A stretch of DNA of 64,000 nucleotides from Bdellovibrionia bacterium (GTDB lineage: Bacteria; Bdellovibrionota; Bdellovibrionia; Bdellovibrionales; JAGQZY01). The stretch lies in assembly GCA_030424715.1 (NCBI GenBank), contig JAUHWH010000004.1, positions 96,437 through 160,436 on the forward strand, read 5' to 3'. Positions 13,270-33,119 of this stretch are shown here, piece after piece. The position numbers and the translations under genes were made by a program. Within the stretch, counting starts at the first letter, position 1, and the number at the start of each line of letters is the position of its first letter. The notes beneath the pieces are model-generated. The model made no database searches, was not told the DNA's origin, and saw only the letters and a program-made list of their open reading frames with translations.

Positions 13270-13418
13270 GTGGCTAGGTTGCTCAGTGGGGTTCTTCCGC
13301 TGAGTCGTTGATTTTGGCCGTCGAGTTTTCAAGTGCAAGGTAGCGTTTCCGTTAGAGATCCAAATTGCTTTTTAAAGCCAGGCGTGCGGTAATAGTTTTT
13401 TTATCTTTGGGAGGTTTT

Positions 13419-14120: not shown

Positions 14121-14137
14121 TTGGTACTCTCGTTGCA
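14121..14137 (+). promoter_or_regulatory. Sigma-54-type promoter of the first CGEGF lipoprotein
   Basis: TTGGTACTCTCGTTGCA fits the -24/-12 pattern: GG at 14123-14124 and GC at 14135-14136 with ten bases between, flanked by TTGGNAC and TTGCA. Transcription would start near 14148, giving a leader of about 28 bases with GAAGGAG before the ATG. Such promoters need an ATP-driven enhancer-binding protein; none is encoded in the window. Confidence 0.8.
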
Positions 14138-14175
14138 CCTATAGTTGTGGATACTATTTATGAAGGAGAGATATA

Positions 14176-15030
14176 ATGATTAAGATAAAAATCACAATGG
14201 CCATTTTAGCGGTCTTGTCTTTAGGAATGCTCACCGCATGTGGTGAAGGTTTTAAGGCAGTAGAACTTAGCTCCCAGGGCGGAGGCGGAGACGGTGGTGG
14301 CCCTATCATCGAACGTCCTCTCGAAGACCTCCCTGCGGGAGACACCGAGACAAGTATAGATCAAGAGATTGCTGAGCAGTTTGACTCGCAGCGGGTGGCT
14401 TCCCCCAACCCCTCGGCTGTTGTTGATCTGGCTGCAAGCATAAAATCCATTGGCGCCGTTCTGACTCACAGTCAATCACCTGGCGGAGTGGCTCGCGGAA
14501 CGACTGTCACTGTCACCGCTCTTTTGAGTTGTGAAAACAAAATTGAAATCGATCGCACAGTAGATCTCGACGGTATGATCAGCGGAGGTACCGTTTCACT
14601 GGGTGGAGCTTCGAGCTACCAGTTTTATCTCACTTGCTCTGACTCTGAGTGTGACGAGATGGTCGTCACCGTTGAGCGAGCCCTTAGTGGTCCCCATTCC
14701 GATAGTGGTAGCGCCATTGTGCACTACGGTCTTCGGGGTCAGTTGACCTCTCAGATTGGTAATGGCTACACCATGGAATACATCAGTCGTCCAAGCCAAG
14801 CTGCTCACTTTTACTCGACACAAACAGTGGCCTTTATGGAGCGAACTTGTCGCGAAGCCGATGCCGAGCGTTTGGCTGGCGAAGGTCTCTCTGGAAATAG
14901 CAGTAACTCCAACCTCGGCCCTTGGGTCCCACCTGGTCAAAACGAAAACGCCGGAGGCCTTGATGAGTCTCTTTTCACTGAAGACCAAAATGAAGACGGA
15001 TCTGATTTTCCATTTTATGGCCCTCAATAA
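14176..15030 (+). CDS. Lipoprotein of a CGEGF family, first copy
   Basis: A lipoprotein signal ends in LTAC at about residue 22, followed by the unusual run GEGFKAVELSS. The same start (CGEGFRATELAS) is found in the gene at 32394, and both have YxFxxTC-x-x-x-x-CDE-M/L-V segments further in, so they are paralogs with much divergence. After a Gly-rich linker (about residues 35-50) comes a beta-rich domain with paired Cys, and then a C-terminal Asn/Gly/Glu-rich tail. The function is unknown. It is probably exported and made only when the sigma-54 activator is on. A terminator follows. Confidence 0.75.
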   Translation: MIKIKITMAILAVLSLGMLTACGEGFKAVELSSQGGGGDGGGPIIERPLEDLPAGDTETSIDQEIAEQFDSQRVASPNPSAVVDLAASIKSIGAVLTHSQSPGGVARGTTVTVTALLSCENKIEIDRTVDLDGMISGGTVSLGGASSYQFYLTCSDSECDEMVVTVERALSGPHSDSGSAIVHYGLRGQLTSQIGNGYTMEYISRPSQAAHFYSTQTVAFMERTCREADAERLAGEGLSGNSSNSNLGPWVPPGQNENAGGLDESLFTEDQNEDGSDFPFYGPQ

Positions 15031-15056
15031 GTAGTGACCGATAGATAAATCTCTCC

Positions 15057-15086
15057 AAGGCAGGCTCGATGAGTCTGCCTTTTTTT
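15057..15086 (+). terminator. Intrinsic terminator after the first CGEGF lipoprotein
   Basis: AAGGCAG pairs with CTGCCTT, with an inner CTC/GAG after one mismatch and a three-base loop, followed by an unbroken run of T. It closes the single-gene transcript. Confidence 0.88.
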
Positions 15087-15133
15087 GTGTCCAGGCTTTT
15101 GCAGAACCCCGTGGGGTGTGGGAAGATGTTCGG

Positions 15134-16369
15134 ATGAAGACCATGACCGAGCCAGAAATCGATGCCGTCATCCAGCAGCATCAATCGTTGTTGGGTGCGG
15201 AGCTCACCCAGATTGTTTACAGTGAAAAGGCCTTGCAACTGCAACTCAAGCGGGAGGGCCGTTGCACTTGGTTGACCTTCTCGATGAAACCCGGAGTGCC
15301 TTACCTGTTCTTGACAGACAATCGAATCTTCTTACAAAAGACGATGAAAAAGCCTGTGGGGCTTTTTTTGAAAACCCATTTTATGGGTCGCTCGCTCTCT
15401 CGGATACAGCGATTGACTGAGCTTGGGAGAGTCGTCACTCTGGAGTTTACAGCCGACGATCCTTGTCAGCTGCATTTTTCATTGGTCACAGGGCGCGTGA
15501 ACATCGAAGTTCAATATGGTGATAAAAAAGTCAGTGCTTTTAAGCCCAAACCCTTGGCCGCTAAGCCAAATACAGCGGACTGGAGTGCCAATGAGCGCAG
15601 CCTTCGAGACTCAGAGTTCTTTGAGCAGGCATGGCGCGAGCAAAACAGCAGTTCGAGCGCGAGTGCCCCGGTGGATCAGCAAAAGGCTTTAAAGAAAAAA
15701 AGACAGGGTCTTAAAAAAATGCAAGCCAAATTGTCTGAGCTCGACGACGACCGCTGGCGACGTTGTGGGGAGTGGCTAAAGACTCAGCAAAGTTTAGAGG
15801 ACCCACCGAGCGAGTTCGTCGATTTGTTGGACTCTCAGCAGAGCTTGTCGTGGAATGTGGAAAACTGCTTTCAACATTCTAAAAAGAACACCCTAAAGAG
15901 GGCGGGCACCGAGCAAAGAGTTTCAGATTTGAAAAAAGAAATTGAAGATCTTGAATCCTCTCCTAAAAGATCCGTTCCAAAGAAACCTCAGGCGGCAAAC
16001 CTGCTTGCTCAGGCCGACCTCAAGGGAAAGACCCATCAGTTGGCCGAAGGCAAAGTTTACGTGGGCAAGTCTGGTGCTGATAATCTAAAACTGTTACGCA
16101 AAGCCAAGCCCTGGTACCTTTGGTTGCACATTAAGGATTATCCTGGCGCCTACGGTATTCTCGAGAGAAATAAAAGCGCAAAAGTCAGTAATAAAAGTTT
16201 GCAAGAGGCCGGGCGAGCCGTGGTTCGCCAATCGCTGCCTCAGAGTGCCTCAGGTCTGTTTGAGGTTCTCTATACGGAATGTCGCTATGTGCGTCCCATC
16301 AAGGGGGCAAAGTCTGGACAAGTGACCTATTCCCATGAAAAGGTAATAACTGTCAGGATAGAAAAATGA
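15134..16369 (+). CDS. NFACT-family RNA/ribosome-binding protein
   Basis: The start at 15134 has GGAAG eight bases upstream and is preferred to a GTG at 15116. The N-terminal 150 residues resemble NFACT-N, a long charged coiled coil follows (about 180-300), and the last 100 residues are a clear NFACT-R domain (YVGKSGADNLKLLRKAKPWYLWLH, shown in part, then PGAYGILE). Related RqcH/Tae2 proteins bind stalled 60S/50S subunits and add C-terminal tails. This protein is about 150 residues shorter than RqcH, and the helix-hairpin-helix part is not evident, so activity in rescue is uncertain. It is the first gene of a seven-gene coupled run. Confidence 0.8.
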   Translation: MKTMTEPEIDAVIQQHQSLLGAELTQIVYSEKALQLQLKREGRCTWLTFSMKPGVPYLFLTDNRIFLQKTMKKPVGLFLKTHFMGRSLSRIQRLTELGRVVTLEFTADDPCQLHFSLVTGRVNIEVQYGDKKVSAFKPKPLAAKPNTADWSANERSLRDSEFFEQAWREQNSSSSASAPVDQQKALKKKRQGLKKMQAKLSELDDDRWRRCGEWLKTQQSLEDPPSEFVDLLDSQQSLSWNVENCFQHSKKNTLKRAGTEQRVSDLKKEIEDLESSPKRSVPKKPQAANLLAQADLKGKTHQLAEGKVYVGKSGADNLKLLRKAKPWYLWLHIKDYPGAYGILERNKSAKVSNKSLQEAGRAVVRQSLPQSASGLFEVLYTECRYVRPIKGAKSGQVTYSHEKVITVRIEK

Positions 16370-17070
16370 TTGAAGTGAAATCATTAAGCAAACGGTTTGG
16401 TAAACACTGGGCTGTAAAAAACACCACGTGGTCGGTCGAAGACAATAGGCTCTTGGGACTTCTCGGCCCCAACGGAGCTGGTAAGTCAACCACCATGAAA
16501 ATAATGACGGGCCTTCTTTGTTCATCAGAGGGCCAGGTGCTTATTGATGGCTACGATATTTTGACCCATCCCATCGAAGCCAAGCGCAGGATTGGCTATC
16601 TACCAGAGACCCCGCCTCTGTATGAAGAGCTCAAAGTGGTGGATTTTTTTGACTTCGTCTGCGGTATTAAATCGGTGGACTCAAGCCAACGCAGCCGTCA
16701 AATAGATCAGGCCATTGAAAAGATGAGTTTGCAGGAAGTCGCTTTCAAGCCCATCCGTGTTTTATCGAAGGGCTTTAAGCAGCGGGTGGGGATTGGGCAA
16801 ACTTTGATCGGTGAGCCCTCGATTCTGATCCTCGATGAGCCGTCGGTGGGTCTTGACCCCCATCAAGTGGTTGAGCTGCGCAATATCATAAAAGGCTTAA
16901 AAAAAGATCACGTGATAGTCTTGTCGACCCATGTGCTTTCGGAGGTCGAGCAAATCTGTGATGACGTAGTCATTTTAGATAAAGGGGAAGTGAAAATTCA
17001 AGGCACTCTTCAGGAACTCAAGACCGGCGGACGCTCCCTCGAGGATGTCTTTATTGAGGTGACCCGATGA
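16366..17070 (+). CDS. ABC transporter ATP-binding protein, GldA-like
   Basis: A 234-residue ATPase with Walker A LLGPNGAGKST, the Q-loop region YLPETPPLYEELKV, a degenerate signature LSKGFKQRVG and Walker B ILILDEPSVGLDP. The YLPE-x-P-P-LY element is typical of the ABC-2 branch that includes GldA of gliding bacteria and copper-export-like NosF. It drives the permease encoded next. It starts inside the stop of the NFACT gene (ATGA). Confidence 0.92.
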   Translation: MIEVKSLSKRFGKHWAVKNTTWSVEDNRLLGLLGPNGAGKSTTMKIMTGLLCSSEGQVLIDGYDILTHPIEAKRRIGYLPETPPLYEELKVVDFFDFVCGIKSVDSSQRSRQIDQAIEKMSLQEVAFKPIRVLSKGFKQRVGIGQTLIGEPSILILDEPSVGLDPHQVVELRNIIKGLKKDHVIVLSTHVLSEVEQICDDVVILDKGEVKIQGTLQELKTGGRSLEDVFIEVTR

Positions 17071-17837
17071 TGAGTCCTATACTGGCCATATTAAAAAAAG
17101 ATCTCACGGCATTGTTCACCAACTCCATGTTTTATCTATTAACGGGGATATGTTGTTGCCTTTGGGGATTGTTTTTCTCTTTTGAGCTTTATGCTTTCGT
17201 GCAGAAGTCTTACCAATTGTCGACCCAGGTTCAGCAGGGAGGGCTCAATATTCATCAGCATCTGGTGTCGTCCTATATTGTGATTGTTCACTATATTCTG
17301 GTCTTTATCATTGCTGCTTTAAGTATTCGTTTTTTTGCCGAAGAAAAAAAGTTAAACACGTTTCCGGTTCTTCTGACCAGCCCGATCACGTCTTGGCAGA
17401 TTGTCTTTGCGAAATGGTTGGTCGGTGCTTCGCTCATATTTTTTCTTCTCTTTATATCGGCCATTTTTCCACTGTCGCTGCTGACTTTTATGAGTCTACC
17501 GATCAAGCTGTTTCTCTATAGCTATTTTGGTGTGTTTGTTGTTTTGTGTGTTTATATGTCAGCGGGCTTACTGGCTTCCTCGCTAACAGAATCCTTGATT
17601 GTTTGTGTGGTGTTGTCTCTGATGTTCAATATCTGTCTATTGTTGATGGGTGTTGGCAGAGAATTGACGGATTCATTGATTTTTCAAGAGTTGTTTGGTT
17701 TTTTAGCGATTGACCAGCACTTTGCGACGTTCCGCAAAGGGATCTTCAGTTTTTCGTCTATTGTGTACTTGCTTAGTCTTTCCGGCCTCTTTGGTCTGAT
17801 GACCGAACGGGTGGTTGAATACCACAGGTGGCGATAG
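17067..17837 (+). CDS. ABC-2 permease, GldF-like
   Basis: A 256-residue integral membrane protein with about six helices and the ABC-2 features RFFAEEKKLNTFPVLLTSPI (a cytoplasmic coupling region) and conserved SAGLLASSLTES. It forms the pore for the ATPase whose gene overlaps it by ATGA. It has the size and layout of GldF. What is carried is unknown. Confidence 0.87.
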   Translation: MMSPILAILKKDLTALFTNSMFYLLTGICCCLWGLFFSFELYAFVQKSYQLSTQVQQGGLNIHQHLVSSYIVIVHYILVFIIAALSIRFFAEEKKLNTFPVLLTSPITSWQIVFAKWLVGASLIFFLLFISAIFPLSLLTFMSLPIKLFLYSYFGVFVVLCVYMSAGLLASSLTESLIVCVVLSLMFNICLLLMGVGRELTDSLIFQELFGFLAIDQHFATFRKGIFSFSSIVYLLSLSGLFGLMTERVVEYHRWR

Positions 17838-19337
17838 ATGAATGCCTTAGGTAAACTATCCCTCATCTTATCGTTACTATGTTTTCTGTTCACCTTGGGC
17901 TTTAAATTAGCTCTGAGTGGCTGGATCCCTTTTATCTCCGTGGGCTTTTGGTTTGGCTTGTTCTTCTTGCTTTTTGCTCTGGCGATCAATCTTCAGTTCT
18001 TAAGATCTTTGCTGAAGTCGGAGTCCTTGCGGTTTTTGGGCAAGAGCCTCCTTTTGCTCCTCGCTAGTTTTGCGGTGGTCTTTTTTGTGAACTTTATTTT
18101 CTATAAAAAAAATCTCACAGTGGATATCACTGACAATAAAATTCATAGTTTGTCCGAGTTGAGCCAGGCTCTGGTAAAGGCCCTGCCGGAACCCCTTTAT
18201 TTTTACTACTTCCACGTGGGCAACTCCAAGGTTCGGGGATTCGAGCCCCAGGTTCGTGCGGCCCTCGAGCCCTACCTAGCACTAAGCTCAAAGCTTCACT
18301 TTCAAAGTTATTCGATTTTTCAACGCCCTGACCTTGCTGAGAAATTTAAGGTGGGTGATGAAGAATCTTCTCTTTTTATCGAACACAGGGGCCGGATCCA
18401 GAGGCTGTCGGGGCTCGATGAAGCCTCGATCACCAATGGAATTTTAAAAGTGAGCAAAGAGGCGAAGAGGATTTACTTTCTGCAATCTCACGACGAGCGA
18501 AAAATCGAGGACAACTCCACCTTTGGATTAAAAGGAATGAAAGAGCAGCTTGAACGACTGCACTATGAGATAGCTAGTCTGACTAACTTTGATTCTGTCC
18601 CTGAGGATATTGCCATCTTGGTCATGGCCGGCCCGCGAGTGCGGGTGTCTGAGGCCGATCAATCGAAAATCAGAGACTACATCTTAGCGGGCGGCGCCTT
18701 ACTTGTTGCTATCGATCCGGGGGAGGACCATGGGCTGGGTCCACTTTTAAAGTCTTTCGGAGTCGAGGCGCAAGACGTGTTTCTGTTCACCCCTGAAGCT
18801 CAAGCCAGCCAGTCCAATCTTTTGGTACTCACCCATGCGGGGCAATCTTCCCATGAGGTGGCCCTGGGGTTGGCTCCAGGACTGAACCCTGCTTTGTTTA
18901 TATCTTCGTCTCTTCAGGTGTTAGAACAAGAGGGGGTCAAGGTCAGTCCGGTACTGGAGCATTTGCCAAATTCGGTCGCTCGATCTGATATCGATCCCGC
19001 GAGCTCTGTCGTTAAAAGTCATTCATTGTTTGCGGCCCTTTTGTCAGAGGGTCTTAATGAGGGCAATAATTACTTTCGAGTGGCTACGGTTGCCGATAGT
19101 GATTTTATGACCAATCAGTTTTTTTCACGCCCTGGGAATTTCGACTTTATTTTGAGTCTGGTGACTTTTCTATCGAAAGACGAAGACCTTCTGAAGATGC
19201 AGTCACCGGTGCCTGAGACCACTTACCTGATTCTGACCCAAACGCAGTTGAATCTGTATTTCTTATTTTTCGTTCTGCCGATGTGTGTTTTATTTTTCTT
19301 AGTGGCCCTGTTCTTCAAACTTAGGAAGCTGTTTTGA
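17838..19337 (+). CDS. ABC auxiliary membrane protein, GldG-like
   Basis: A 499-residue protein starting directly after the permease stop codon. It has two N-terminal helices and a third helix just before the end (YFLFFVLPMCVLFFLVALFF), with a large periplasmic domain between. That domain has the ABC_transp_aux pattern: LTVDITDNKIHSLSEL, an IYFLQSHDERKIED strand, and LLVAIDPGED. It matches GldG, which in Flavobacterium is needed for gliding together with GldA and GldF. The order ATPase-permease-GldG is conserved. Confidence 0.88.
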   Translation: MNALGKLSLILSLLCFLFTLGFKLALSGWIPFISVGFWFGLFFLLFALAINLQFLRSLLKSESLRFLGKSLLLLLASFAVVFFVNFIFYKKNLTVDITDNKIHSLSELSQALVKALPEPLYFYYFHVGNSKVRGFEPQVRAALEPYLALSSKLHFQSYSIFQRPDLAEKFKVGDEESSLFIEHRGRIQRLSGLDEASITNGILKVSKEAKRIYFLQSHDERKIEDNSTFGLKGMKEQLERLHYEIASLTNFDSVPEDIAILVMAGPRVRVSEADQSKIRDYILAGGALLVAIDPGEDHGLGPLLKSFGVEAQDVFLFTPEAQASQSNLLVLTHAGQSSHEVALGLAPGLNPALFISSSLQVLEQEGVKVSPVLEHLPNSVARSDIDPASSVVKSHSLFAALLSEGLNEGNNYFRVATVADSDFMTNQFFSRPGNFDFILSLVTFLSKDEDLLKMQSPVPETTYLILTQTQLNLYFLFFVLPMCVLFFLVALFFKLRKLF

Positions 19338-20227
19338 AGAAGGTTGTTATCTTTGCAGCGGTTCTTGTTATTTTAGGGGCCTATTCCTACTTTCAGATCA
19401 TTCAGCCAGAGTCGTTGAACAAAACCAAGGTTGTCACGTCTCTTTTACAGCCTGAGTCAGTGGAAGTTTCAGAAATCACCATCACCAATGGTGACCAAGA
19501 GGTGCGCCTTGCAAAGAAAGACGATTTTTGGTGGGTTATGGCACCGCAACATTATTTAGGAAACCAAGAGTATATTGAAAAGGGACTACAGATTATGCGT
19601 GAGTCCAATATTAAAAATTCGTTCGCTTTTAAAGACGACTTTTTTGGTCTCACTCCAGGTAAAGCGTTTTTGTCTCTAAAGTATGGTAACGGACTGAACA
19701 GTCGTTTGCGCGTGGGCACCAAGAGTGCGCCGGGTGAACATATCTATGTCCTCGATGAAGACTCTCAGAAAGTGTCCGTTGTTCACAATGTTTGGGGGCA
19801 ATTTCTGTATTATCCCTTGGAACGCTTTTATCACCCTTTCCTGCCGATTCCCGGAAACTTGGTCAAAACGGTGCAGCTCAAAAGAGCAGGAAAGCAGGTT
19901 TGGCACCTCTCCCCCTCCAAGGGGACAAAAATGGCCGTCCAATTCAAGGGAAAGACTTTGGAGACTCCCAAGGCACAATGGCTCTGGTTTTTTAGTAAGC
20001 TACGAGAGTTCCCCTTAAAAAACATCAAATTCGACCATCGCAAGGACTTCGAATCGGCTCAAGAGCTTGAGATCCGCACGGACAAGGGTAACATAAGATT
20101 TGTTTTTAACGAAAAGGGCACAAAATTGTTTGTTCCAAGCCTGAATGTTTTTGCCGAGGTCGACCCTTATTCGCTAAAATCATTGGATCATGAAGTAGCA
20201 AAGGTTGTTGAAAATGATAAAAAATGA
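19334..20227 (+). CDS. DUF4340-domain protein
   Basis: A 297-residue protein that starts with TTG overlapping the previous stop (TTGA). An N-terminal helix (VVIFAAVLVILGAYSYF) anchors it. The repeated pattern of a residue pair such as EVSEITITNGDQEVRLAKKDD followed by FWWVMAPQHYL (shown in part) is typical of DUF4340, a family commonly encoded directly after GldG-like genes. It probably belongs to the same envelope complex, facing the periplasm. Confidence 0.85.
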   Translation: MKKVVIFAAVLVILGAYSYFQIIQPESLNKTKVVTSLLQPESVEVSEITITNGDQEVRLAKKDDFWWVMAPQHYLGNQEYIEKGLQIMRESNIKNSFAFKDDFFGLTPGKAFLSLKYGNGLNSRLRVGTKSAPGEHIYVLDEDSQKVSVVHNVWGQFLYYPLERFYHPFLPIPGNLVKTVQLKRAGKQVWHLSPSKGTKMAVQFKGKTLETPKAQWLWFFSKLREFPLKNIKFDHRKDFESAQELEIRTDKGNIRFVFNEKGTKLFVPSLNVFAEVDPYSLKSLDHEVAKVVENDKK

Positions 20228-21200
20228 AGTGCTCGTGCAGTCTCCCACTCGGATTGATTTTGCTGGCGGAACCCTTGATTGCTGGCCCATAAACGCTTTG
20301 ATGAGCCCGGTTACGACGATCAACGTTGCCATCAACATTTTCACAACCTGTCGTCTATCGCTGCGTGATGATGAGCAAATCATGGTGCATTCACGAGAAA
20401 CTGGGCAGACCTACGAGTTCAATGACCTTGAAGAATGCCTGAGGTGTGAAAAGCCTGACTTTCAGTTTTTTCGAGAACACATTGATTACTGGAAGCCCCA
20501 GTCTGGTTTCAATTTGTCAGCCCAGAGCGACAGTCCCATGGGGGGCGGGCTCGGTGGAAGCTCCAGTCTGTCCATATCTATGTTTAAAGCGTTTTGTCAG
20601 ATCCATGATGTTGCGATGGATGATTATGAAATCGTTCGGATCTGTTCGGGTATTGAGGCCAAAATTCTAAAAATGCCCACGGGGACGCAAGACTATTTTC
20701 CGCCCCTCAGAGGTGGGTTTAATATTATCGAGTATCGCAGTGGTTGGCCGAAAGTGGAGACCCTGTCGGTTGAAGATCTCGATATCAATCAAAATATTTC
20801 CGTATTTTTTACCGGCAAATCTCATCATTCAGGGATCAATAATTGGCAAGTGATTAAAAAATTTGTCGAGGGTGACCCCAAAACTCAAACCGCTTTGCAG
20901 AAAATTCGCGAGGTGGCGGACGAAACAAAAAAAGTGGTGCTCGATAAAGATTGGTCACAATTGCCGGCGCTTTTTCAACGTGAATTTGAAGCGCGCATGG
21001 ATTTAGCCGAAAGCTTTTCTTCACCAGAGATTGAAAAGCTAGCGGAGATCGCTTTTGCCAACGGTGGTGATGCCATCAATATCTGTGGTGCTGGTGGTGG
21101 CGGTTGCGTCTTCGTGTGGTCGTCTCCAGAGAATCGCCAAGGGGTGATTGAAGCTTGTTCTGAAGCGGGCTTTCAACATCTGGATGTCGAGCTCGTATGA
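20214..21200 (+). CDS. GHMP-family sugar kinase, HddA-like
   Basis: The ATG at 20214 lies 14 bases inside the upstream gene. The protein (328 residues) shows the GHMP phosphate-binding loop SPMGGGLGGSSSLSISMF, an N-terminal PTRIDFAGGTLD and the C-terminal ICGAGGGGCVFV motif 3. The family phosphorylates small sugars; the closest pattern I know is D-glycero-D-manno-heptose-7-phosphate kinase (HddA) or fucokinase-like, but the substrate cannot be read from the sequence. It is coupled to the Gld-like genes before and the DUF429 gene after, so it may serve surface polysaccharide. Confidence 0.85.
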   Translation: MIKNEVLVQSPTRIDFAGGTLDCWPINALMSPVTTINVAINIFTTCRLSLRDDEQIMVHSRETGQTYEFNDLEECLRCEKPDFQFFREHIDYWKPQSGFNLSAQSDSPMGGGLGGSSSLSISMFKAFCQIHDVAMDDYEIVRICSGIEAKILKMPTGTQDYFPPLRGGFNIIEYRSGWPKVETLSVEDLDINQNISVFFTGKSHHSGINNWQVIKKFVEGDPKTQTALQKIREVADETKKVVLDKDWSQLPALFQREFEARMDLAESFSSPEIEKLAEIAFANGGDAINICGAGGGGCVFVWSSPENRQGVIEACSEAGFQHLDVELV

Positions 21201-22030
21201 GTTCGTCAAAGAAGCCGTTTAAAGTTATCAAATTCGCCGGCCTGACTCTCGGCGGTGGCAAGGGCCGCAAAACCAGTCTGACAATCCTTGAATACTATGT
21301 GAAAGAAAAAAAATTATTTTTGTCAGAACTTCACGACGGCATCGAAGAAACCCAGAAAATCTCAGCCGATTCTCAGATCATTAAGATATTAGATAAACAT
21401 GGACCACAGTTGCACACGATCGGCATGGATGCCCCTCTGGGTATGCCGAAGTGTTTGCGTTGTCGTTTGAAGTGTCCGGGCCACGAAAAGTGCACGGAGC
21501 CCGAAATCAAATGGATGTGGAAGCTTCATCGAAAAAAAGCACCCTCGAAAAGACCAAACAAGATTTTTACCCCTTATACAGAACGCTGTGTGGAGCAATA
21601 CATTCAGCATGAACTAGGGCCCGAGCTCGCACCGGATCACGCTTTTGGAAGCAATCGTGCGCCCTTAAGTGCTCGAGGCCTTTACTTAAAGCGACGGATC
21701 AAACAAGGGCGCTTGATCGAGGTCTTGCCGCGGCTCAGTGTCTGGCGACTGGGCCTGAACATGGGGTTGCGGAAAAATCATTTACTCCTATATAAACAGT
21801 TGGCTCGCGGCCCGGCCATTCGCCAGACTTTTTTGGACCAGTGGAGTGAAGAGGGCTTGAGCTTTATTTATCATCGCGATTTTAAATTGATGGTCAAAGA
21901 CGCTTTTGCCTTCGACTCATTCATATGTGCTTATACGGCGTACCTGAAGTACCGTGGGCTTTGTGAACCAAAACCCAAAGACTTTCCTCGATCGGAAAGC
22001 TGGATCGCTTTTCCCGCAGAAGACGCTTAG
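21197..22030 (+). CDS. DUF429-family protein (RNase H-like fold)
   Basis: The ATG overlaps the stop of the kinase gene. The 277-residue protein shows GMDAPLGMP near residue 75 and VKDAFAFDSFICAYTAYL near the end, both typical of DUF429, predicted to be a nuclease with an RNase H fold. It carries a cluster CLRCRLKCPGHEKC (residues about 85-98) that could bind zinc. No function is known from experiment that I can name. It is the last gene of the run; its stop codon touches the stop of the convergent lipoprotein gene. Confidence 0.78.
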   Translation: MSSSKKPFKVIKFAGLTLGGGKGRKTSLTILEYYVKEKKLFLSELHDGIEETQKISADSQIIKILDKHGPQLHTIGMDAPLGMPKCLRCRLKCPGHEKCTEPEIKWMWKLHRKKAPSKRPNKIFTPYTERCVEQYIQHELGPELAPDHAFGSNRAPLSARGLYLKRRIKQGRLIEVLPRLSVWRLGLNMGLRKNHLLLYKQLARGPAIRQTFLDQWSEEGLSFIYHRDFKLMVKDAFAFDSFICAYTAYLKYRGLCEPKPKDFPRSESWIAFPAEDA

Positions 22031-23278
22031 TTACTGAGGGCACTCCGCGGCCATGCCGCTGATTCGGGCGCGGTTGACGAGAACCTCACGAATCGTTTGA
22101 TTGATGGCGCTGGCTTGGCTAGAATCTACCACAGCACCTCCACCAACAGTGTGTGCGGTGGCACGGCTAAGCATCAATCTCCAGACACTTCCACCATCGA
22201 CTGGGTCTTCGTAGGTGATCTCAGCCGTATTAGCATCTGCTAACAGTGCGCCGGTGCGAACTATCTCGTATTGAAGTCCTGATGCTGGAAAAAACACATC
22301 CAACTCAGTGGGCTGCACGGGAACCTCGGTGGCGCAATAGAATGTTGGATCTCCAGCCTCTTTCCAACGCATGTTCACTCGTTGGTTTTCGTATTGTACT
22401 TGGTAGCTAAATGAACTTTCGAATGTACCCATTCCAGATCCGGCTTGGTAGCTCCACTTTGAAGTATTCCACGCGTAAGATGAGTAGGAGTTGCAAAACT
22501 CCTCGCCCCCATCGTTACTCATCTTTTGGGCAACGGAATCTTGCTCATTGTTAAAGATAGCCATAACACCGCCCTTCGATTCGTCGGTGGCGTAATACTG
22601 ACCATCGTCAACACATGCGCGAGGTGCTAATGAGAGCTCCAAGCTGCTGTTCTCTTTATAAAAGAAGAGAAGAGGAGAATTACAGTCAGCGATCATAGGG
22701 TCATCACTGGATACCTGACGATTGAGAAAGCGTAAGCTGCTAAGAGCCGCCAAAGAGTTGTTCTCAAGGGCCTTGCTCATTCGTTTTTGCCAATGGCAAC
22801 GCACGGGCTGATCGGGCTTGAAACATCCGTAACCGACACAAGCATCGCTTTGCATATGGGCGCAGTGGGGGAGGGCTGAGTTTTCACAGTAATCGGTCGG
22901 CAAGTCGGCTTGAAAGGAGACACCGGCTTCTTCATAAATGTGGGTTTCAAAATAGGTGTCGTAAAGCTTGGCGAGAATCCGCGAGGTGGCCAGGTTTAAA
23001 GAGTTACCTCCTCCGACTTTGTAGAAGATGTTGTCCCCGATCGCGAGGTTGAAGCTAAAGTTTCCGCCAACGCCGGGATCGCCGCCACCGTTGTCGCCAC
23101 CATTATTGTCATCGTCGCCAGAGTCTCCATTATCGACGTCGTCGCCGTTAAAGACTTGCACTGGTAGTCCACCATTGTCAGAGCTGGTTGCTTTTAAAGT
23201 GCTACCGCCACAGTTTTGAAAAACCATGGTGACACTCATCCCCATCAAAAAGACAGTCAAGAACCCGATTTTTTTCAC
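22031..23278 (-). CDS. Lipoprotein with Asp/Gly/Asn-rich linker
   Basis: The GTG start follows AGGGGG by seven bases. A lipoprotein signal ends in FQNC, a frequent lipobox in this type of organism. Residues about 45-72 form a low-complexity run of Asp, Gly and Asn that could bind calcium. The main domain has some ten Cys. The C-terminal part ends in INQTIREVLVNRARISG, which resembles the helical tail of proteins that carry a final Cys-containing motif. No family is recognised. It lies head to tail (stop touching stop) with the DUF429 gene. Confidence 0.65.
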   Translation of the reverse strand: MKKIGFLTVFLMGMSVTMVFQNCGGSTLKATSSDNGGLPVQVFNGDDVDNGDSGDDDNNGGDNGGGDPGVGGNFSFNLAIGDNIFYKVGGGNSLNLATSRILAKLYDTYFETHIYEEAGVSFQADLPTDYCENSALPHCAHMQSDACVGYGCFKPDQPVRCHWQKRMSKALENNSLAALSSLRFLNRQVSSDDPMIADCNSPLLFFYKENSSLELSLAPRACVDDGQYYATDESKGGVMAIFNNEQDSVAQKMSNDGGEEFCNSYSSYAWNTSKWSYQAGSGMGTFESSFSYQVQYENQRVNMRWKEAGDPTFYCATEVPVQPTELDVFFPASGLQYEIVRTGALLADANTAEITYEDPVDGGSVWRLMLSRATAHTVGGGAVVDSSQASAINQTIREVLVNRARISGMAAECPQ

Positions 23279-23402
23279 AATAATCCCCCTAAGAATGCTT
23301 CTTATTGTATCAAAACTTATCGGAAAAATCGGGGTAAGAGTTTATTTTGATTGAGAAAATATCAAATTGAGACAGCTTTTGGGCGCTCTCGCTGACTTTG
23401 GG

Positions 23403-25286: not shown

Positions 25287-25350
25287 ACGGGGGGCGGCAA
25301 TGGCGTTTCTAAGGATACAAAGTTAGGATAATGGAGGATTTGAGGCGTTT

Positions 25351-26424
25351 ATGGAGCATTGGAAATTAAGATCAGAAAAGCTGGGAGATGTGGTTTATTT
25401 CCCCTACGGTGCCGTTACCAAAGGTGATCCTTCTGAAATCTATGTTTGGGATCTCGACAAGACCTACTTGGACACCTCTTGGCACACTCCCAGTGAATTA
25501 ATACGAACCATTTTTGAAAAATCTTTCCAAAAACGCAATGTTCCTGGGACAGCAATCTTGGTGGCTTCGGTCAAAGAGAACTGGATGGTTCAGCATGGGG
25601 ATGAGCACTTTCCCCTGTTTTTTATTACGGCTTCGCCGCCTCAAATGGAAGTGAAGATTAAAGAGAAATTAGAAATCGATGAGATTGTCCCGGAGGGGAT
25701 TTTCTTTAAAGACAACTTACGAAACCTCCACCCCAGCCGTTGGCGACGCCTGACGCAGCAGGTGGGATTCAAAGTGCAGGCCCTAATGCAATTGCGCTGC
25801 AAGTTTTCAAACGAGATCACCCAAGTGTTATGGGGAGACGATAGCGAAACCGATGCGACCATTTACTCTCTGTACTCCGACATCTGCTCTCGGCGCTGGC
25901 CGGAGGCCGAGCTGGTAAAATTGCTCAAGCACTTTGGCGTGACCCGTGCGCAACTGGATACCATTCTTGATTTGCAAGATCAGTGTCTTGAGCATGACCC
26001 GGTAGAGAAGGTGTACATCAACCTGGCGGTGGATACCGACCCGGAGTACTACTTAAAATTTGGCCGCCGAATCGTTCCAACCTACAACTCGTTTCAAACC
26101 AGCTTAGACTTGTTTCAGGACAGCCGCTTGCTAGAGACCCATGTTTTGAAGGTGGCGCAAGATCTTCATACCAATTTTGGGTTCACCAGGGATGAACTGC
26201 AGCGTTCGCTGGACGACCTGGTCCGTCGGCGGATTTTAGCTCAAGAAACCTTAGAGAGAATTTTGCCGATTTTGCAAGCGGGTGAGATTATCACCCCCGA
26301 CTACAAGCCTTCGATCGCACCCGGTCGGGTCGAGTCCCAGGTGGGCGATCGCATCTTTGGTGTCGAAGGCGAAATGGAACCTTGGATTCCTGAGCAAATT
26401 GATTATATGCACGACTACCGTTAG
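25351..26424 (+). CDS. App1-like phosphatidate phosphatase domain protein (DUF2183)
   Basis: A 357-residue protein whose N-terminal half has the HAD-like App1 order: VWDLDKTYLDT (nucleophile Asp and second Asp), FFITASPPQM (Ser/Thr motif II) and VLWGDDSETD (acidic motif). In yeast, App1 removes phosphate from phosphatidic acid. The C-terminal 170 residues are helical and not recognised. There is no signal peptide. GAGGCGTTT precedes the ATG. It is convergent with the giant lipoprotein gene (four-base overlap). Confidence 0.82.
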   Translation: MEHWKLRSEKLGDVVYFPYGAVTKGDPSEIYVWDLDKTYLDTSWHTPSELIRTIFEKSFQKRNVPGTAILVASVKENWMVQHGDEHFPLFFITASPPQMEVKIKEKLEIDEIVPEGIFFKDNLRNLHPSRWRRLTQQVGFKVQALMQLRCKFSNEITQVLWGDDSETDATIYSLYSDICSRRWPEAELVKLLKHFGVTRAQLDTILDLQDQCLEHDPVEKVYINLAVDTDPEYYLKFGRRIVPTYNSFQTSLDLFQDSRLLETHVLKVAQDLHTNFGFTRDELQRSLDDLVRRRILAQETLERILPILQAGEIITPDYKPSIAPGRVESQVGDRIFGVEGEMEPWIPEQIDYMHDYR

Positions 26425-29400
26425 TTCGGAACCGCGTACATTCCCGGAAAGGTCGGGATCACCTGGTCGTAGATTTTACCCAGTCGCCAGAGTGAATAAT
26501 CATAGACATTCCTGTCGGGGATTACTTCACCATCCTGATTAATCTTTTTAGCCTTCATCGTGCTGATGAATGTGTTGAAGTCCCGTTGTCCCCGTAGCGA
26601 CAACAGCCAAACGTGGTTCAGTAGGTTCACGTCGTCGAGCATGTCCCCGGCGGTAAAATGTTGGGTGACGTAGTAGTAGTTCTCACGAATTTTCTCGGGG
26701 GCGGTATGAATTTCTCCATCACAAACCATATAGCCGCGGGTGAGAGCTTTTACGAACCTTGGGTCTTTCGGTTTCACATTCTTTCGAAGTCCCATGCGCT
26801 TGATCTTAAGGTCTTCGATCAAATTGGGTGTGAACTGTAAGGTCAGACACTTTTCGTGTTCAAGAATTTCGATGTCCATCTCGGCTTTTTGAACCACAAG
26901 AAAGGTGGCCGCATTTACACTCGTCGCTACGGCCATGTTTGAGCCCGTGGCTTCATTCACACTGCCCGAGAACATGGAAAAACCACCAAAGCCCGCCAGA
27001 CCAGCGGCTGCGACAAGGGGCCAGCCGGCAACCGCACCGACACCAGCGACAGCCAGTCCGAGCAGGGCCACACCATTGACTCCTGCGGACACCACGTCAC
27101 TGATATCGTCGTAGCTAGAAACACCAAAGTCGATCCCAACATTAATGTTCATGTTTTTACCGGCACGGTGTTCGTAGGTTCCGGTGCGAAGAATTTTGTA
27201 GCGTCTATCAATACTAAAACCTTCAAACACAATTTGTTCGCGATCGGGGAGGTAGGTCAATTTTTTTAGACAAGTGGTGAGTAATTGATCGTGCGCTTTC
27301 GTAGCACCCGATCGTCCCACCCAGCCATCAGAGGCCAGAAGGTCTTGTTCCTCGAGGGAGGAGACCGTTTGGTTGGTCAGAGCCTGGCAGATCTTGAGAG
27401 CTTGGTAAAGCTCGACAGACTCAATGCCGTGGGCGAGCCACTGTCTAACATGTTGTTGGGAAATCTCGGGAATTGTTCCATTGTATTTTGAAGAAATAAT
27501 ATCCTCGGTGACTCGGTTCTGTTTTCCATAAGAACTTTCGACTCGAACAGTTTTGCCGAGAAGCCAGCCGCCGTAGCCCACCGAGCGATCCCATAAGGGC
27601 TGCAGACTATTCACTCGCTCGACGTCTTCTTCGATCTCTAACAGCTTGTCGTAGGAGTTTAAAAAGAAATACTTCTCCATCAACTTTCGGCTGTCCCCGG
27701 AATTCAAGTTGGCGAAGAGGTCCTGGGCAGGAACAACATTCTCTGTAGTGTCTTCAAAGCAATCGGTGCTGATCTCGCCCTCGAAATGGCAACCCTGTTT
27801 GTATTTCGACAGAGCCTTGCCAGCTAATGATACGTAGCTCAAGTTGAAGGCTTCGACAAAGTGGCCCCGCTGCGAGAGAGCCGCCATCTCATTTTCATAA
27901 CGCTCTTCATTTTTTTTATGCATTTCAATGACTTCGTCGACGAACATGCTGGCAAAAGGCTTTAGGGAGTCGTGGTGGGCTGAGTTTTCAAACTCAGAGT
28001 TGTCGGCCGGTGGACTTTTGGGCTCGTATAGGGTTTCACCACAGTCGATGCGATCGCAGTACTTTTCATCAATGGTGTCTGTCGGGCGCATCTCCGACAT
28101 ATTGTCGTTCTCAACGAGAGTGCAAGGACCGATAAAGGTTCGTCTTTTCAACCCAGATTTGTTGCGATAGAGGTTGAGGTCAACAAAAGGGGCAGCTGGG
28201 TTTTCGGTGTAGTTGTTACGTTGATACAGGCGAACGTCGTCATTGCTGACGCTAAAAGGAAGCCCGAAATCTTCATAAAACACCTGCATCGAGGCTAAGT
28301 AGTCGGCGTAGTGTACATTAGACTCAGAGATCATATCGCTGCCACCGTGTAAAGGGATCGGCCCTTGATCCTCAACATAAGTTTTGTTGAGCCAGTCGGT
28401 GGCGTTCCAGTCGCGCCAGTATTCACTCATCTTTTCGTGCATAGAGCTGAGCTCGCTACGCGCTTTTTGTGTGCGGGCATCAAACTCTCGTTGTGGGAGG
28501 TTTAAGATGTTTTCATACTCGGCGCGGTTAGCGGCCGCCTGGCCTTCTGCCACGCTGTCTTCAAGCTCACTGAGTAACTGAAAACGTTTCGACTGGAGAT
28601 CACCAATGCTGTCCCGTTGAGCGCGCAAGATTTCTAATTCCTTTTCGAGGGTGGCTTGAAACTTTTCATGCCCTTGCTCGACCTCGGCCATTTTGGCGTC
28701 AAAGTAGGCTTGCTTCTCAGCTTCTGTCATGTTGGCCGAGCGGGCTTGAAACTCAGTGTACTCTTCGACCAGCTTTCTTATTTTGCCTTCGACGATGTTG
28801 TCACGCAGGAGCTTTTCTTCGTCGATGGTTTCTATTTGCACCATAATGTTCGAACGAATACTCATCATTCTGAGATCACGCATAGAGAATTCGATTGGGG
28901 TGGTGATTCGTCCGGCTTGCACTCGCAACAGCTTTTTAATGACTGTAGTGTACTCACCTTTGCGAGCTTCGCCACCCTCGCGAACCTGTCGAATGCTGTG
29001 CTCGTTGGTTTCTGGATCACGAATCAGGTGGGTTCCACTTTGAAAAGGGTCGATGTAGTATTTAACCAGAGCAATTTTGGCCAGATAAATACCATCGCGC
29101 AGAGGTTCGAATTTGCGGCCGGACATAATGGTGTAACGTTGCACCAGAGGGTCTAAGGCCATCACCACGGCTTTTTTTACGTTGAGGGTTAAGAACTCAT
29201 CGATGACGTAACGAAAACGAATGGTTTGGTAGCGAAAGGCGTCGACCATAAGTAATGGCTCACGCACTTCAACCTCACTCATTTTTTGGTACCAAGCTTC
29301 GTTGCCTCGCACGTCGGCTCCGAAGGTCCAACCTTCATCCCAAGGGTTGATCGCAAGAGTCAAAGGCTGCTGGGCGCGAGAGGCGACTTGCGAAATGGTG

Positions 29401-30809
29401 AATTCGGGGAACATATACTGTTCGGGTTGGTAGTAGAGGTGCGTGATTTCGTTCATCCACCGGATGCGTCCTTCGTGATCGGATTCCACCTGAGCCTCTG
29501 TTTTGTCGGTTTTGCGAACAATCTTGAAGGGCTGAAAGATAACTGGTTTACCGGTCACGGAATCGGTGACCGTAGTGGTCACCCGATAAATGATCGTTCT
29601 CTTCGTGGCTGTCTCACCCGACTTTATGCGGACAAAACGCGGCTCCATTTGCGAGTAATAGACAGGCGGTAAGTCCTTGACCCAGCCCGCCTCTTTTAGC
29701 TCGTCAAAGTTTTTGGCGCCTTCAACAAAGGACGAGTAGTCAAAAGCCGAGCGGCTCAGTGAGCCTTCCACTTGACCGACACCTTTGGCGCCGAAGATCT
29801 CATCGAATGATCCGATGTTGTGTAAACCTTCGTAGTTGTTCATTGGAAAGGGTGCTTCTCGCGGTTCTACTTTCAGAGCCAACTGAACTTGCCCCATGCT
29901 GACGCGTCTTTTTAGGTCGATGTCACCCGTGAAAGTGAGAAGGCCGTCCTCGGTCATAGTGATATCCTGCCAAGGCAGCTCGGTGCTTAATATCAGGCGT
30001 TGTTCAGCGTCGGGCCCTAGGTAGTTGGCGACCAATTGGGCGTAGACCCGAAACTGCCCACGTCGAAAGTAGGTCCTAACCGGGTCGCCGTTCATTTTTA
30101 AGGGTTCAATAAAGGGCTTCATACGAATAATCATTTTCATTCGCTTGCCATCGGCGATGTCCTGTTTTGGGATCAACTGAAAGGCGGGAGCATTTTCAAT
30201 CAGGAGATTTTTACCCGAAGAGCGACCAAAGCGCCCGGCAAGAGCCAAGTCACTTTCCGACTCAGGGACGAGCCGGTTCGCCGCCAGATCACTGCGATCG
30301 AGATCGATCACTTCTTGACCTGTCTCTTGGCGGTACTCCATCCAGGGGTTGATCGCCATACGAATGGTCTCTTGTCCGCGATAAGTACCGGCACCCACAA
30401 TGGTTCGGGTTTTTTCGATGTAGACGGAGTCACCGGAATAGTTAAAGTGCACGACCTCTTTCCATTGCAGGCAGCCGTCTTTGTCGGTTTCAACAACAAA
30501 GTCGGGCTTGTCGGCTTGGGTCACGCGAAATTTTTGACCGATGGGCAAGATGGCGTTGGTGATACGACTGACCACACAGGCTCGAAATTGGTAGTTCTTT
30601 AAGGTCGGAACGGTCCATGTTTCGTTTTGCTCATCGTTAATGGAAGCGCCAAAAGTTTGCAGCACTCGAAAGTCGCCCGTTGCGTCTTTTGAAATCCCGG
30701 CGCTGTCAGGATTGTCCGAGGCGGAGCGCAAGCATGATGTTTGAAAAAACAACAGTCCAAGGGTCGCTATAGTGATAGTCAATGAAGAAAGATTTTTAGA
30801 GGACGACAT
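26421..30809 (-). CDS. Giant lipoprotein with two duplicated modules
   Basis: The ATG at 30809 has GGAG seven bases upstream and lies 14 bases inside the barrel gene before it. The 1462-residue protein has a lipobox ending FQTSC (Cys26). Residues about 70-305 and 405-650 are copies of one module: a beta-sandwich-like part ending in AINPW (residues 152-156 and 486-490), then a strand pair with a GQFRVYAQLV/DGIYLAKIAL counterpart. Residues about 680-830 are a long charged coiled coil. A Gly/Ala-rich hydrophobic stretch near residue 1270 could enter a membrane. No family is recognised. It is probably anchored in the outer membrane and works with the barrel encoded upstream. Confidence 0.78.
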   Translation of the reverse strand: MSSSKNLSSLTITIATLGLLFFQTSCLRSASDNPDSAGISKDATGDFRVLQTFGASINDEQNETWTVPTLKNYQFRACVVSRITNAILPIGQKFRVTQADKPDFVVETDKDGCLQWKEVVHFNYSGDSVYIEKTRTIVGAGTYRGQETIRMAINPWMEYRQETGQEVIDLDRSDLAANRLVPESESDLALAGRFGRSSGKNLLIENAPAFQLIPKQDIADGKRMKMIIRMKPFIEPLKMNGDPVRTYFRRGQFRVYAQLVANYLGPDAEQRLILSTELPWQDITMTEDGLLTFTGDIDLKRRVSMGQVQLALKVEPREAPFPMNNYEGLHNIGSFDEIFGAKGVGQVEGSLSRSAFDYSSFVEGAKNFDELKEAGWVKDLPPVYYSQMEPRFVRIKSGETATKRTIIYRVTTTVTDSVTGKPVIFQPFKIVRKTDKTEAQVESDHEGRIRWMNEITHLYYQPEQYMFPEFTISQVASRAQQPLTLAINPWDEGWTFGADVRGNEAWYQKMSEVEVREPLLMVDAFRYQTIRFRYVIDEFLTLNVKKAVVMALDPLVQRYTIMSGRKFEPLRDGIYLAKIALVKYYIDPFQSGTHLIRDPETNEHSIRQVREGGEARKGEYTTVIKKLLRVQAGRITTPIEFSMRDLRMMSIRSNIMVQIETIDEEKLLRDNIVEGKIRKLVEEYTEFQARSANMTEAEKQAYFDAKMAEVEQGHEKFQATLEKELEILRAQRDSIGDLQSKRFQLLSELEDSVAEGQAAANRAEYENILNLPQREFDARTQKARSELSSMHEKMSEYWRDWNATDWLNKTYVEDQGPIPLHGGSDMISESNVHYADYLASMQVFYEDFGLPFSVSNDDVRLYQRNNYTENPAAPFVDLNLYRNKSGLKRRTFIGPCTLVENDNMSEMRPTDTIDEKYCDRIDCGETLYEPKSPPADNSEFENSAHHDSLKPFASMFVDEVIEMHKKNEERYENEMAALSQRGHFVEAFNLSYVSLAGKALSKYKQGCHFEGEISTDCFEDTTENVVPAQDLFANLNSGDSRKLMEKYFFLNSYDKLLEIEEDVERVNSLQPLWDRSVGYGGWLLGKTVRVESSYGKQNRVTEDIISSKYNGTIPEISQQHVRQWLAHGIESVELYQALKICQALTNQTVSSLEEQDLLASDGWVGRSGATKAHDQLLTTCLKKLTYLPDREQIVFEGFSIDRRYKILRTGTYEHRAGKNMNINVGIDFGVSSYDDISDVVSAGVNGVALLGLAVAGVGAVAGWPLVAAAGLAGFGGFSMFSGSVNEATGSNMAVATSVNAATFLVVQKAEMDIEILEHEKCLTLQFTPNLIEDLKIKRMGLRKNVKPKDPRFVKALTRGYMVCDGEIHTAPEKIRENYYYVTQHFTAGDMLDDVNLLNHVWLLSLRGQRDFNTFISTMKAKKINQDGEVIPDRNVYDYSLWRLGKIYDQVIPTFPGMYAVPN

Positions 30810-31950
30810 CGTTGAACTCCAAGTACAGATTGAAAATATCAAGATCGGCTTGCAGCGGGCGGGCTTCGATCAGGTCGGCCTGAACCCAGGCGGCTTTAAT
30901 TGTGCAGCCCATTTTTTTTAATTGAATATCAAGGCCGTACGACTGACCCTGTCGGTTGTTTCTTCCGTATTCAAAGGCGCTGTATAGAGCGGGGGTCGAG
31001 TCTGATTCGGCATAAAAGCTGGCAAAGTTGGGCTTGATCGCAAAATCATTAAAGTCGATATCAAGGGAAGTTCCCACCCACTGTGAACGGCGGCGATCGG
31101 AAGGCGCTTCAGTGTTTTCGATGATCCCTATTTGGAACTCCTGCTGAATCCGAGACGAGTAGCGGGTTGTTAGAATGTAAGCTTGTGCAAGCCCCGCAAA
31201 TCCATAACGAAAGAATGACTCCGACGGATCAACACCGAGCACAGAGTTCCCCAGTCGATTGCTTTGAAAGGCGACCACTGATGGGAGTTGTGAAAACTCA
31301 AATTGATTGATGTTGGCATCGAGATGCAACCACTCTCGCGGAGACCACTCGGCTTTCAGTCCAACGGAGCGCAAGCTCGGCAGAGGTTCGGCTTCAGTCC
31401 GCTGAGACTCGAAACTGGTTGATGTGGGGATGGCGTATTGCACGTTGGGACGAATCGCGAACGTCTTGTTTTTCAAGCCCGAGGCCACAGCCACGCCCGG
31501 AAAGGAGCGGTCAGCGATGAACATCCGGTTGTTAAAATATTTCTCTTGGTTCACAGAGCCGGCTTTTACGTTAATCCATGTCGACGGCTCGTAGTAGGCC
31601 ACCAGCTCACGCATATTGAAGAAATTGAAATTGGGGTTTTGAAAACGACTTTGGGCGCGGCCTGTGGTGAGATTGAGTTGTAGGTCCGAACGCACTCCAA
31701 AACTTTTTGAAAGAGGCAGGTGGGCTTTCGGGCGAATCGAGAAAAATACGAGTTGAGATTCGTCCTGTCCTTCTTGAAATCCGAACGCCCCCATCTCAAA
31801 ATTGGTCTTGACGTCAAGATCTTTGAACGTTTTTTGAGAAGTTGTGGCTGTGTTGATATTAATTTGTTCGTTATTGGGTTGAGCTGTGGCTGTGAGATAG
31901 ATACAGCAGCCCATTGTAAAAACTAAAATGTTCCCAATAATTTTTATCAT
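30796..31950 (-). CDS. Outer-membrane beta-barrel, partner of the giant lipoprotein
   Basis: A signal peptide (IIGNILVFTMGCCIYLTATA) is followed by about 360 residues of alternating strands with many aromatic girdle residues and short turns. GGGGACT lies before the ATG. The end YLEFNDVVL is hydrophobic but has Leu, not Phe, as last residue. The next gene starts 14 bases inside it, so the two proteins are made together; a barrel that serves as a pore or a docking site for the giant lipoprotein is a natural guess. Confidence 0.75.
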   Translation of the reverse strand: MIKIIGNILVFTMGCCIYLTATAQPNNEQININTATTSQKTFKDLDVKTNFEMGAFGFQEGQDESQLVFFSIRPKAHLPLSKSFGVRSDLQLNLTTGRAQSRFQNPNFNFFNMRELVAYYEPSTWINVKAGSVNQEKYFNNRMFIADRSFPGVAVASGLKNKTFAIRPNVQYAIPTSTSFESQRTEAEPLPSLRSVGLKAEWSPREWLHLDANINQFEFSQLPSVVAFQSNRLGNSVLGVDPSESFFRYGFAGLAQAYILTTRYSSRIQQEFQIGIIENTEAPSDRRRSQWVGTSLDIDFNDFAIKPNFASFYAESDSTPALYSAFEYGRNNRQGQSYGLDIQLKKMGCTIKAAWVQADLIEARPLQADLDIFNLYLEFNDVVL

Positions 31951-32355
31951 TCAATAGTCCCCGAGCTTCTTCCCCCCCGAAAACCTAACACCTGTTTTAT
32001 TTGATAATGACCAATCATGATAGAAACTTATGGCTATTCTGTCATAAATACACACTTTGAACATTTTTCGTGTCAATTAAACGACACTCGTTCGCCCGGG
32101 AGCGGAAGATATTCTGAACCTCCTTTCAAAGGAGACGAGAGGAGAGGCGGGGGAGCTGGCAGAGAACGGGCGAGATTCAGGAGCCTCTCGGCGGCAATGC
32201 TGAAAACCGAATAAAGAGGAGCATGACGGCTGTCTCAATCTGAGACGGCCGTCTGTAGGTACGACAGAGGGGGTGACGAGAAGTGGCTGGAGCCTCTTTC
32301 TAAAGGCTCGAGATATCATAAGTGGTTGAATTTGTTTGCTTATTTATTGGCACTC
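31951..32355. other. Structured spacer with a strong dyad, no gene
   Basis: About 400 bases between divergent genes. It contains a 13-pair hairpin or operator (32225-32253, arms GACGGCTGTCTCA and TGAGACGGCCGTC, loop of three), a small CTCCTT/AAGGAG hairpin near 32120, GTGTC/GACAC near 32070-32087, GAGCCT/AGGCTC near 32290-32309, and a distant pair TCGCCCG (32091) / CGGGCGA (32167). Either a folded RNA or an activator region for the sigma-54 promoter that follows. Confidence 0.5.
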
Positions 32356-32372
32356 TTGGAACGCCTCTTGCT
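32356..32372 (+). promoter_or_regulatory. Sigma-54-type promoter of the second CGEGF lipoprotein
   Basis: TTGGAACGCCTCTTGCT has GG at 32358-32359 and GC at 32370-32371 with ten bases between. It matches the promoter at 14121: in the 24 bases from each TTGG, 17 are identical, including CCTATA just after the -12 element. Transcription would start near 32383, only some ten bases before the start codon. Confidence 0.78.
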
Positions 32373-32393
32373 CCTATAAAGGGTGAGGTGTTT

Positions 32394-33119
32394 ATGATGA
32401 AAAGAATTCAGTTTTTACTTAGCATTACGATGATGGTCTTTTTGACTTCCGGATGTGGCGAAGGCTTTCGAGCCACTGAACTCGCCAGCAGCGATGGCGG
32501 GCAAGACTCGGCCTTCTTTGACTCCGAAGGCAACCGGCGCAGCTTCACTGATCTCGATGTCGATAGAGAAATTCTCATGAGCTACAGCAGTGAGCTCGAC
32601 AATAAAGAAGATGCCACCACTCGACTGGGCTTCATCATCCGCGCTTTTGATATGATCTTATCCACAGACTCCAATAATAATTTCAACTTTCAGGCGCGTT
32701 TGGCCTTGGGTTGTAATGACGCTGAGTTCTTTGATGTGGCGGTCACCCAACAACAGATGCAAACCATGCAGGTCATTAATATGGGACGCCAAGGGGACTA
32801 TGAGGTTGAGTTCCGTTGCACAACCGGTGGTTGTGATGAACTCGTGGCCGGTATTAGAAAGTTCAAAGGCAATGATCAGGGCTTGGTTTTGACCGGCCTC
32901 GCTGTTGGCGGACAAAGAGAAGGTGAGATATTATACGTTAGCCGAAGTGTTGATTTCGCTCCTTATTTTGCAGCTTTTGATCGCATTCAGAACTTTGAGC
33001 AACAAAACTCTTGCTCCATCACGCCTGCTGAAGAAGAGCGGAGTTGGAAAGAACAACTCACCGACCGATTGGCTGAAGAGGCCACTGATCGCCTCAAAGA
33101 CTGGTTCAATAACCTTTAG
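32394..33119 (+). CDS. Lipoprotein of a CGEGF family, second copy
   Basis: The ATG at 32394 (or the next one at 32397) follows GAGGTG. The lipoprotein signal ends in TSGC and continues EGFRATELAS, as in the copy at 14176. It shares the later YEVEF-x-C-x-x-x-x-CDEL motif and the place of two Cys. The 220 mature residues end in a charged amphipathic helix (RLAEEATDRLKDWF) that the first copy lacks. The function is unknown; both copies lie behind near-identical sigma-54 promoters and so are probably switched on together. Confidence 0.75.
   Translation: MMKRIQFLLSITMMVFLTSGCGEGFRATELASSDGGQDSAFFDSEGNRRSFTDLDVDREILMSYSSELDNKEDATTRLGFIIRAFDMILSTDSNNNFNFQARLALGCNDAEFFDVAVTQQQMQTMQVINMGRQGDYEVEFRCTTGGCDELVAGIRKFKGNDQGLVLTGLAVGGQREGEILYVSRSVDFAPYFAAFDRIQNFEQQNSCSITPAEEERSWKEQLTDRLAEEATDRLKDWFNNL

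Follow-up and report, generated by a model that had tools for sequence, protein, structure and literature searches.

Two paralogous lipoprotein genes of a Bdellovibrionia bacterium in a predicted sigma-54 regulon of exported proteins with a candidate NtrC-type activator

Control of the bacterial exterior by sigma-54 is an established theme (Francke et al. 2011, PMC3162934; D. vulgaris regulome, PMC4641369), and Bdellovibrio is mentioned in neither account. In B. bacteriovorus, the FliA (sigma-28) regulon switches surface proteins, proteases and motility genes, and about one third of the attack-phase promoters were left without an assigned motif (Karunker et al. 2013, PMC3627812). An RpoN-like gene, bd0843, is present in this species (PMC3464611). 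We found no published account of a sigma-54 regulon in the Bdellovibrionales, in a literature search that most subscription journals lay outside of. Here, we analyzed a 64,000-nucleotide stretch of a Bdellovibrionia bacterium genome (assembly GCA_030424715.1, contig JAUHWH010000004.1, positions 96,437 to 160,436; hereafter the window), in which two lipoprotein genes, at 14176 and 32394, lie behind similar sigma-54 type promoters. The two genes probably are paralogs within a sigma-54 regulon of exported proteins, whose palindrome-bearing subset would be driven by an NtrC-type regulator encoded at locus L309. The source genome (G000; 3.13 Mb, 18 contigs) was compared with another genome of the same genus of Bdellovibrionales (G001); the regulon and palindrome comparison rests on these two genomes, one of which is a metagenome-assembled genome.

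An initial annotation had described -24/-12 promoters with exact GG-N10-GC spacing and 17 identities upstream of the two genes, and a recount gave the same outcome. The 24-base stretches TTGGTACTCTCGTTGCACCTATAG (from 14121) and TTGGAACGCCTCTTGCTCCTATAA (from 32356) are alike at 17 of 24 positions, with the spacing exact in both. Scored with a sigma-54 matrix trained without these two sites (leave-out), the promoter of the 32394 gene (32356-32371, + strand, TTGGAACGCCTCTTGC) ranked first in the window with 21.1 bits and that of the 14176 gene (14121-14136, + strand, TTGGTACTCTCGTTGC) second with 17.5 bits, followed by a match of 14.0 bits located within a gene. Across the 3.13-Mb genome, TTGG-N8-TTGC-N-CCTATA is matched perfectly at these two sites and nowhere else. 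Transcription is predicted to start near 14148 and 32383, giving leaders of about 28 and about 11 bases. The genome also encodes the sigma factor on which the initial annotation depended, as rpoN was found in a single copy (496-aa frame; PF04552, E 4.9e-65).

The 14176 protein has an ortholog in G001 (ACGEKFRAMQAAS, 23% identical), behind a -24/-12 site (GTGGTATTCGCTTTGCATCA) that lies 36 bases before the start and lacks CCTATA. A further homolog with such a promoter, as anticipated initially, is at hand; an ortholog of the 32394 protein was looked for in G001 and not found. Because the G001 ortholog keeps the -24/-12 element without CCTATA, the promoter appears to be under selection and CCTATA does not. 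CCTATA, put forward in the initial annotation as a common feature, is exact at both window promoters but was rejected as a mark of the regulon: after the -12 element, regulon sites prefer CTTATAA-like bases only weakly (about 0.2-0.5 bit per position), and the ortholog lacks it. All sequence tests, among them conservation in the ortholog, predict both sites to be real sigma-54 promoters. It is scarcely credible that the -24/-12 matches are accidental and that the two genes are transcribed from other promoters, given the restriction of the exact motif to these two places in the genome, the conserved -24/-12 element of the ortholog and a near-perfect palindrome at 32231, discussed below.

The first gene (14176-15030, + strand) encodes 284 aa (CGEGFKAVELSS) and the second (32394-33119, + strand) 241 aa (CGEGFRATELAS), as supported by their sequences, their mutual alignment, the alignment of the first with its G001 ortholog and a signal-peptide and lipobox check of the second. 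A longer frame of the second gene, from GTG at 32322, takes in the promoter and is an unlikely start. Both products carry a signal peptide and a lipobox, LTAC with Cys22 (14176) and TSGC with Cys21 (32394), and are by lipobox predicted lipoproteins. The mature start CGEGF[KR]Ax-EL[SA]S and the later C-x4-C-D-E, reported in the initial annotation, are indeed common to both proteins, and three further cysteines are conserved in an alignment of the two with the G001 protein. The added statement that the proteins differ elsewhere is accurate in so far as they are only 27% identical, but their homology spans much of their length and a search with one retrieves the other (E 4.6e-8). Since the two proteins are homologous, the shared N-terminus and C-x4-C-D-E motif partly reflect common descent. 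We consider the genes paralogs for lipoproteins of the outer envelope, the location being predicted.

This homology, together with the 17 of 24 promoter bases alike, would also be expected if the promoter likeness stemmed from recent gene duplication only, with no wider regulon. Such an origin is very improbable and already contradicted by the low protein identity, by the 60 bases upstream of the two genes, which match at 22 of 60 positions, near chance, and by the many unrelated exported-protein genes that carry such promoters.

To describe the wider set, the pattern TGGYNYN5TTGCW was used for promoter-like sites and the reversed pattern as control. It matched 83 times versus 43 reversed in G000 and 92 times versus 34 reversed in G001. 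All 83 sites and 43 controls of G000 were inspected, and a site was assigned to an open reading frame (ORF) if it lay 15-80 bases before an ORF preceded by a Shine-Dalgarno sequence and the ORF was not open through the site; 23 of the 83 matches passed this rule, compared with 2 of the 43 controls. Using a simple export rule based on hydrophobicity and lipobox, 18 of these 23 ORFs encode exported proteins (lipoprotein or secreted) versus 18 of 63 window genes (Fisher 4.5e-5). Among the members are a VWA-like lipoprotein (CSKKSFRASEG; domain assigned by eye), secreted proteins of unknown function and a FliL-like protein. Sigma-54 sites of a PhoX phosphatase (L041/L146) and a flagellar rod protein (L203) were missed by the ORF rule. 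About 80 bases upstream of the sigma-54 site of the latter, rod-type gene (G000:C17:128920-128935, - strand) lies a strong palindrome of another kind than that described below, GAGACCATGGTCTC, which may be bound by a flagellar activator. Taken together, these patterns argue that sigma-54 controls a regulon in this genus that comprises about 20 genes or more, most of which encode exported proteins. The regulon of surface lipoproteins proposed initially thus survives as an exported-protein regulon, but CGEGF is not its mark and its other members are unrelated to the pair.

In the 250 bases upstream of 37 promoter sites, the top 7-mer was TGTCTCA/TGAGACA, with 13 regions containing it where 1.5 would be expected. 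It is part of a longer palindrome, TGTCTCA-N3-TGAGACA, located mostly 90-175 bases upstream of the sigma-54 sites. A matrix trained on nine G000 sites only and applied to G001 at a cut-off of at least 10 bits found the palindrome, mostly at positions -93 to -121, for 7 of 30 sigma-54 sites, as against 3 of 261 control windows (Fisher 6e-6). The G001 test carries most weight because the palindrome was first seen in its own training data. In the stretches read from both genomes, a palindrome lies 20-230 bases upstream of 18 distinct sigma-54 sites, each of which precedes an exported-protein gene; the export assignment of one (L213) was made by eye.

The best match of the window to this putative upstream activating sequence (UAS) is a near-perfect palindrome at 32231-32247 (+ strand, TGTCTCAATCTGAGACG), 124 bases upstream of the -24 element of the 32394 gene. 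It scores 21.0 bits in a leave-out ranking, followed by 19.3 and 14.6 bits, and no match of at least 18 bits is expected per 64 kb. The third-best site (14112-14128, + strand, TGTCTCAAATTGGTACT; 13.7-14.6 bits) belongs to the 14176 promoter, and its function is doubtful because it overlaps the -24 element. The G001 ortholog of this gene has a UAS (TGTTTCAAAGTTAAACA, 15 to 17 bits) 116 bases upstream of its -24 element. That the palindrome is shared suggests a single enhancer-binding protein acting on a subset of the regulon. With respect to the earlier suggestion of one activator for both genes, the near-perfect palindrome speaks for it directly at 32394, whereas at 14176 the support is indirect, via the clear UAS of the ortholog.

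Sigma54_activat (PF00158) has about 12 strong matches in the genome, and a GAFTGA-type loop can be recognised in 11 of these. One of the matches is the NtrC-type L309 regulator (G000 C17, L309:1443-2840), which combines Response_reg, Sigma54_activat and HTH_8 domains and contains GAFTGA and a Fis-type helix-turn-helix (HTH). A soluble PAS histidine kinase, this regulator, a HAD gene and a UAS-bearing target are syntenic in G000 and G001. Between the two genomes, the regulator shows 82% identity and its HTH hardly varies, compared with 35% identity for the neighbouring target and 40% for an NFACT-like gene. From synteny and conservation we infer, with somewhat better than even confidence, that the L309 regulator binds TGTCTCA-N3-TGAGACA. 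In the proposed mechanism, a signal would act through the PAS histidine kinase to phosphorylate the L309 regulator, which would bind the upstream palindrome, loop to the sigma-54 polymerase and open the promoter. Transcription would begin about 12 bases after the GC and yield the exported lipoprotein, and the cell could switch a set of surface and secreted proteins jointly.

Several observations weigh against this model. A few sigma-54 targets appear cytosolic or flagellar. Within 1 kb of the 14176 promoter there is no good UAS besides the weak overlapping site at 14112. About half of the promoter-like sites are without a recognisable UAS, so that other activators must serve them. Finally, UAS-like sites at 62233-62249, 53699-53715 and 23358-23374 come without a sigma-54 element, each shortly upstream of an exported-protein or lipoprotein gene. 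The site at 23358-23374 (- strand; 13.7 bits) lies about 110 bases upstream of a lipoprotein gene (22031-23278, QNCGGSTLKATSS), and no sigma-54 element was found near it, the best score nearby being negative. These three sites are what would be seen if the palindrome were bound by another regulator of exported proteins, one that acts independently of sigma-54, and coincided with sigma-54 sites only incidentally. We regard this as improbable, as the palindrome is strongly enriched near sigma-54 sites over controls and the strongest palindromes keep a preferred distance (mostly -90 to -175) to independent sigma-54 sites in both genomes.

The identity of the activator is a separate matter. Promoters and regulon could be real while one or more other activators bind the palindrome and the kinase-regulator pair controls only its neighbour. 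The twelve activator genes of the genome leave other binders available, and several sigma-54 sites without TGTCTCA have other palindromes, among them CGACACGCGTGTCG at L153 and the one at the flagellar L203. On the other hand, the kinase-regulator locus is, among the neighbourhoods read, the only activator locus beside a UAS-bearing target in both genomes, and the DNA-binding part of its regulator is nearly invariant. We therefore see another activator as possible but on balance unlikely, and retain the L309 regulator as the candidate for the palindrome-bearing subset.

The CGEGF motif was followed beyond the two genes. C-G-x-x-F-[KR]-A is rare, with 7 DNA-pattern matches genome-wide, 4 of them in a lipoprotein signal context, and CGE[GK]F[KR]A behind a sigma-54 promoter was found only in the 14176 and 32394 proteins and the G001 ortholog. 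A CGDGFKA lipoprotein (QNCGDGFKATEIGSS; L034/L065, G000:C8:370430 and C8:370478) with long GGDGGS repeats and a DUF4214-like C-terminus has the N-terminal motif in common with the window pair and no homology beyond it; the region upstream of its gene contains no recognisable sigma-54 site. A subtilase lipoprotein (L312, G000:C15:237700-240500) starts with QNCGSQFKANE. It has one enhancer palindrome (20.1 bits) in common with a divergent lipoprotein gene, and the pair shows a clear sigma-54 site on one side only. As the subtilase and the CGDGFKA lipoprotein belong to families unrelated to that of the window pair, the CGxxF N-terminus may be a short motif for sorting or a linker. CGEGF was rejected as a mark of the regulon, since most members are without it and the CGDGFKA lipoprotein gene is without a sigma-54 site.

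Across the 141 genomes searched in the order, full-length homologs of the lipoproteins were confined to the genus, and two proteins matched at the N-terminus only. One of these, from another family of the order (G087 L104), is a lipoprotein (CGSQTQSLQASS) with a strong sigma-54 site (GTGGCACCTCGATTGCT) of 17.1 bits and weak TGTCTCA-like sites at -77 and -93, which hints that the regulon may be wider than the genus. The gene downstream of the 14176 gene (15116-16369, + strand) is NFACT-like (Pfam NFACT_N, 2.9e-10) and served as synteny anchor. It was found in 38 of 40 relatives; of the loci read, those of G000 and G001 alone have a lipoprotein of this family beside it. A tandem array at 13026-13270, shortly before the 14176 gene, repeats a 13-bp unit (GGTAGGGTTTGCT, 99% match) about 19 times; it sits between an RlmL-like methyltransferase gene and the gene of a small lipoprotein (about 13420-13713, MACSSAPPVKPES).

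A Pfam search of both lipoproteins matched no family, and a PDB sequence search gave no significant match. The predicted structure of the 32394 protein, based on three sequences, has a mean predicted local distance difference test score of 59 and a beta-rich core at 80-183. Its top structural match is the Alt a 1-like PevD1 (Z 8.1), followed by FHbp, NHBA and TbpB barrels (Z 6-7). We rejected a specific fold kinship, the structural matches being indistinguishable from a common arrangement. Both lipoproteins are most likely small, beta-rich surface or binding proteins.

With a defined promoter, a defined enhancer site, a list of targets in which surface and secreted proteins abound, and a candidate activator identified together with its kinase, control of the secretome of a predator clade becomes directly testable, and the system would provide the first testable switch for cell-surface proteins of this lineage. 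Whether kinase, NtrC-type activator and sigma-54 form a secretome switch throughout the Bdellovibrionales, used for prey or surface contact and accounting for part of the non-FliA attack-phase promoters, is speculative, and we hold it to be doubtful. The Rrp2-RpoN system of Borrelia works mainly via RpoS; here, in contrast, each exported-protein gene has its predicted sigma-54 site immediately upstream. The two systems are alike in that an NtrC-type response regulator and sigma-54 control, or would control, surface lipoproteins, as PMC3162934 cites for Borrelia. FliA of B. bacteriovorus is likewise a secondary sigma factor of the same order, but recognises TTAAG-N16-CCGATA (PMC3627812), and the promoters described here are of the unrelated sigma-54 type. 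With the regulons of PMC3162934 and PMC4641369 the present one has in common -24/-12 promoters, enhancer palindromes, NtrC-type activators and surface-linked targets including lipoproteins and flagella. Whereas the targets in those accounts are biosynthesis pathways, flagella and exopolysaccharides, the palindrome-associated targets here are individual exported proteins and lipoproteins, in 18 of 18 cases.

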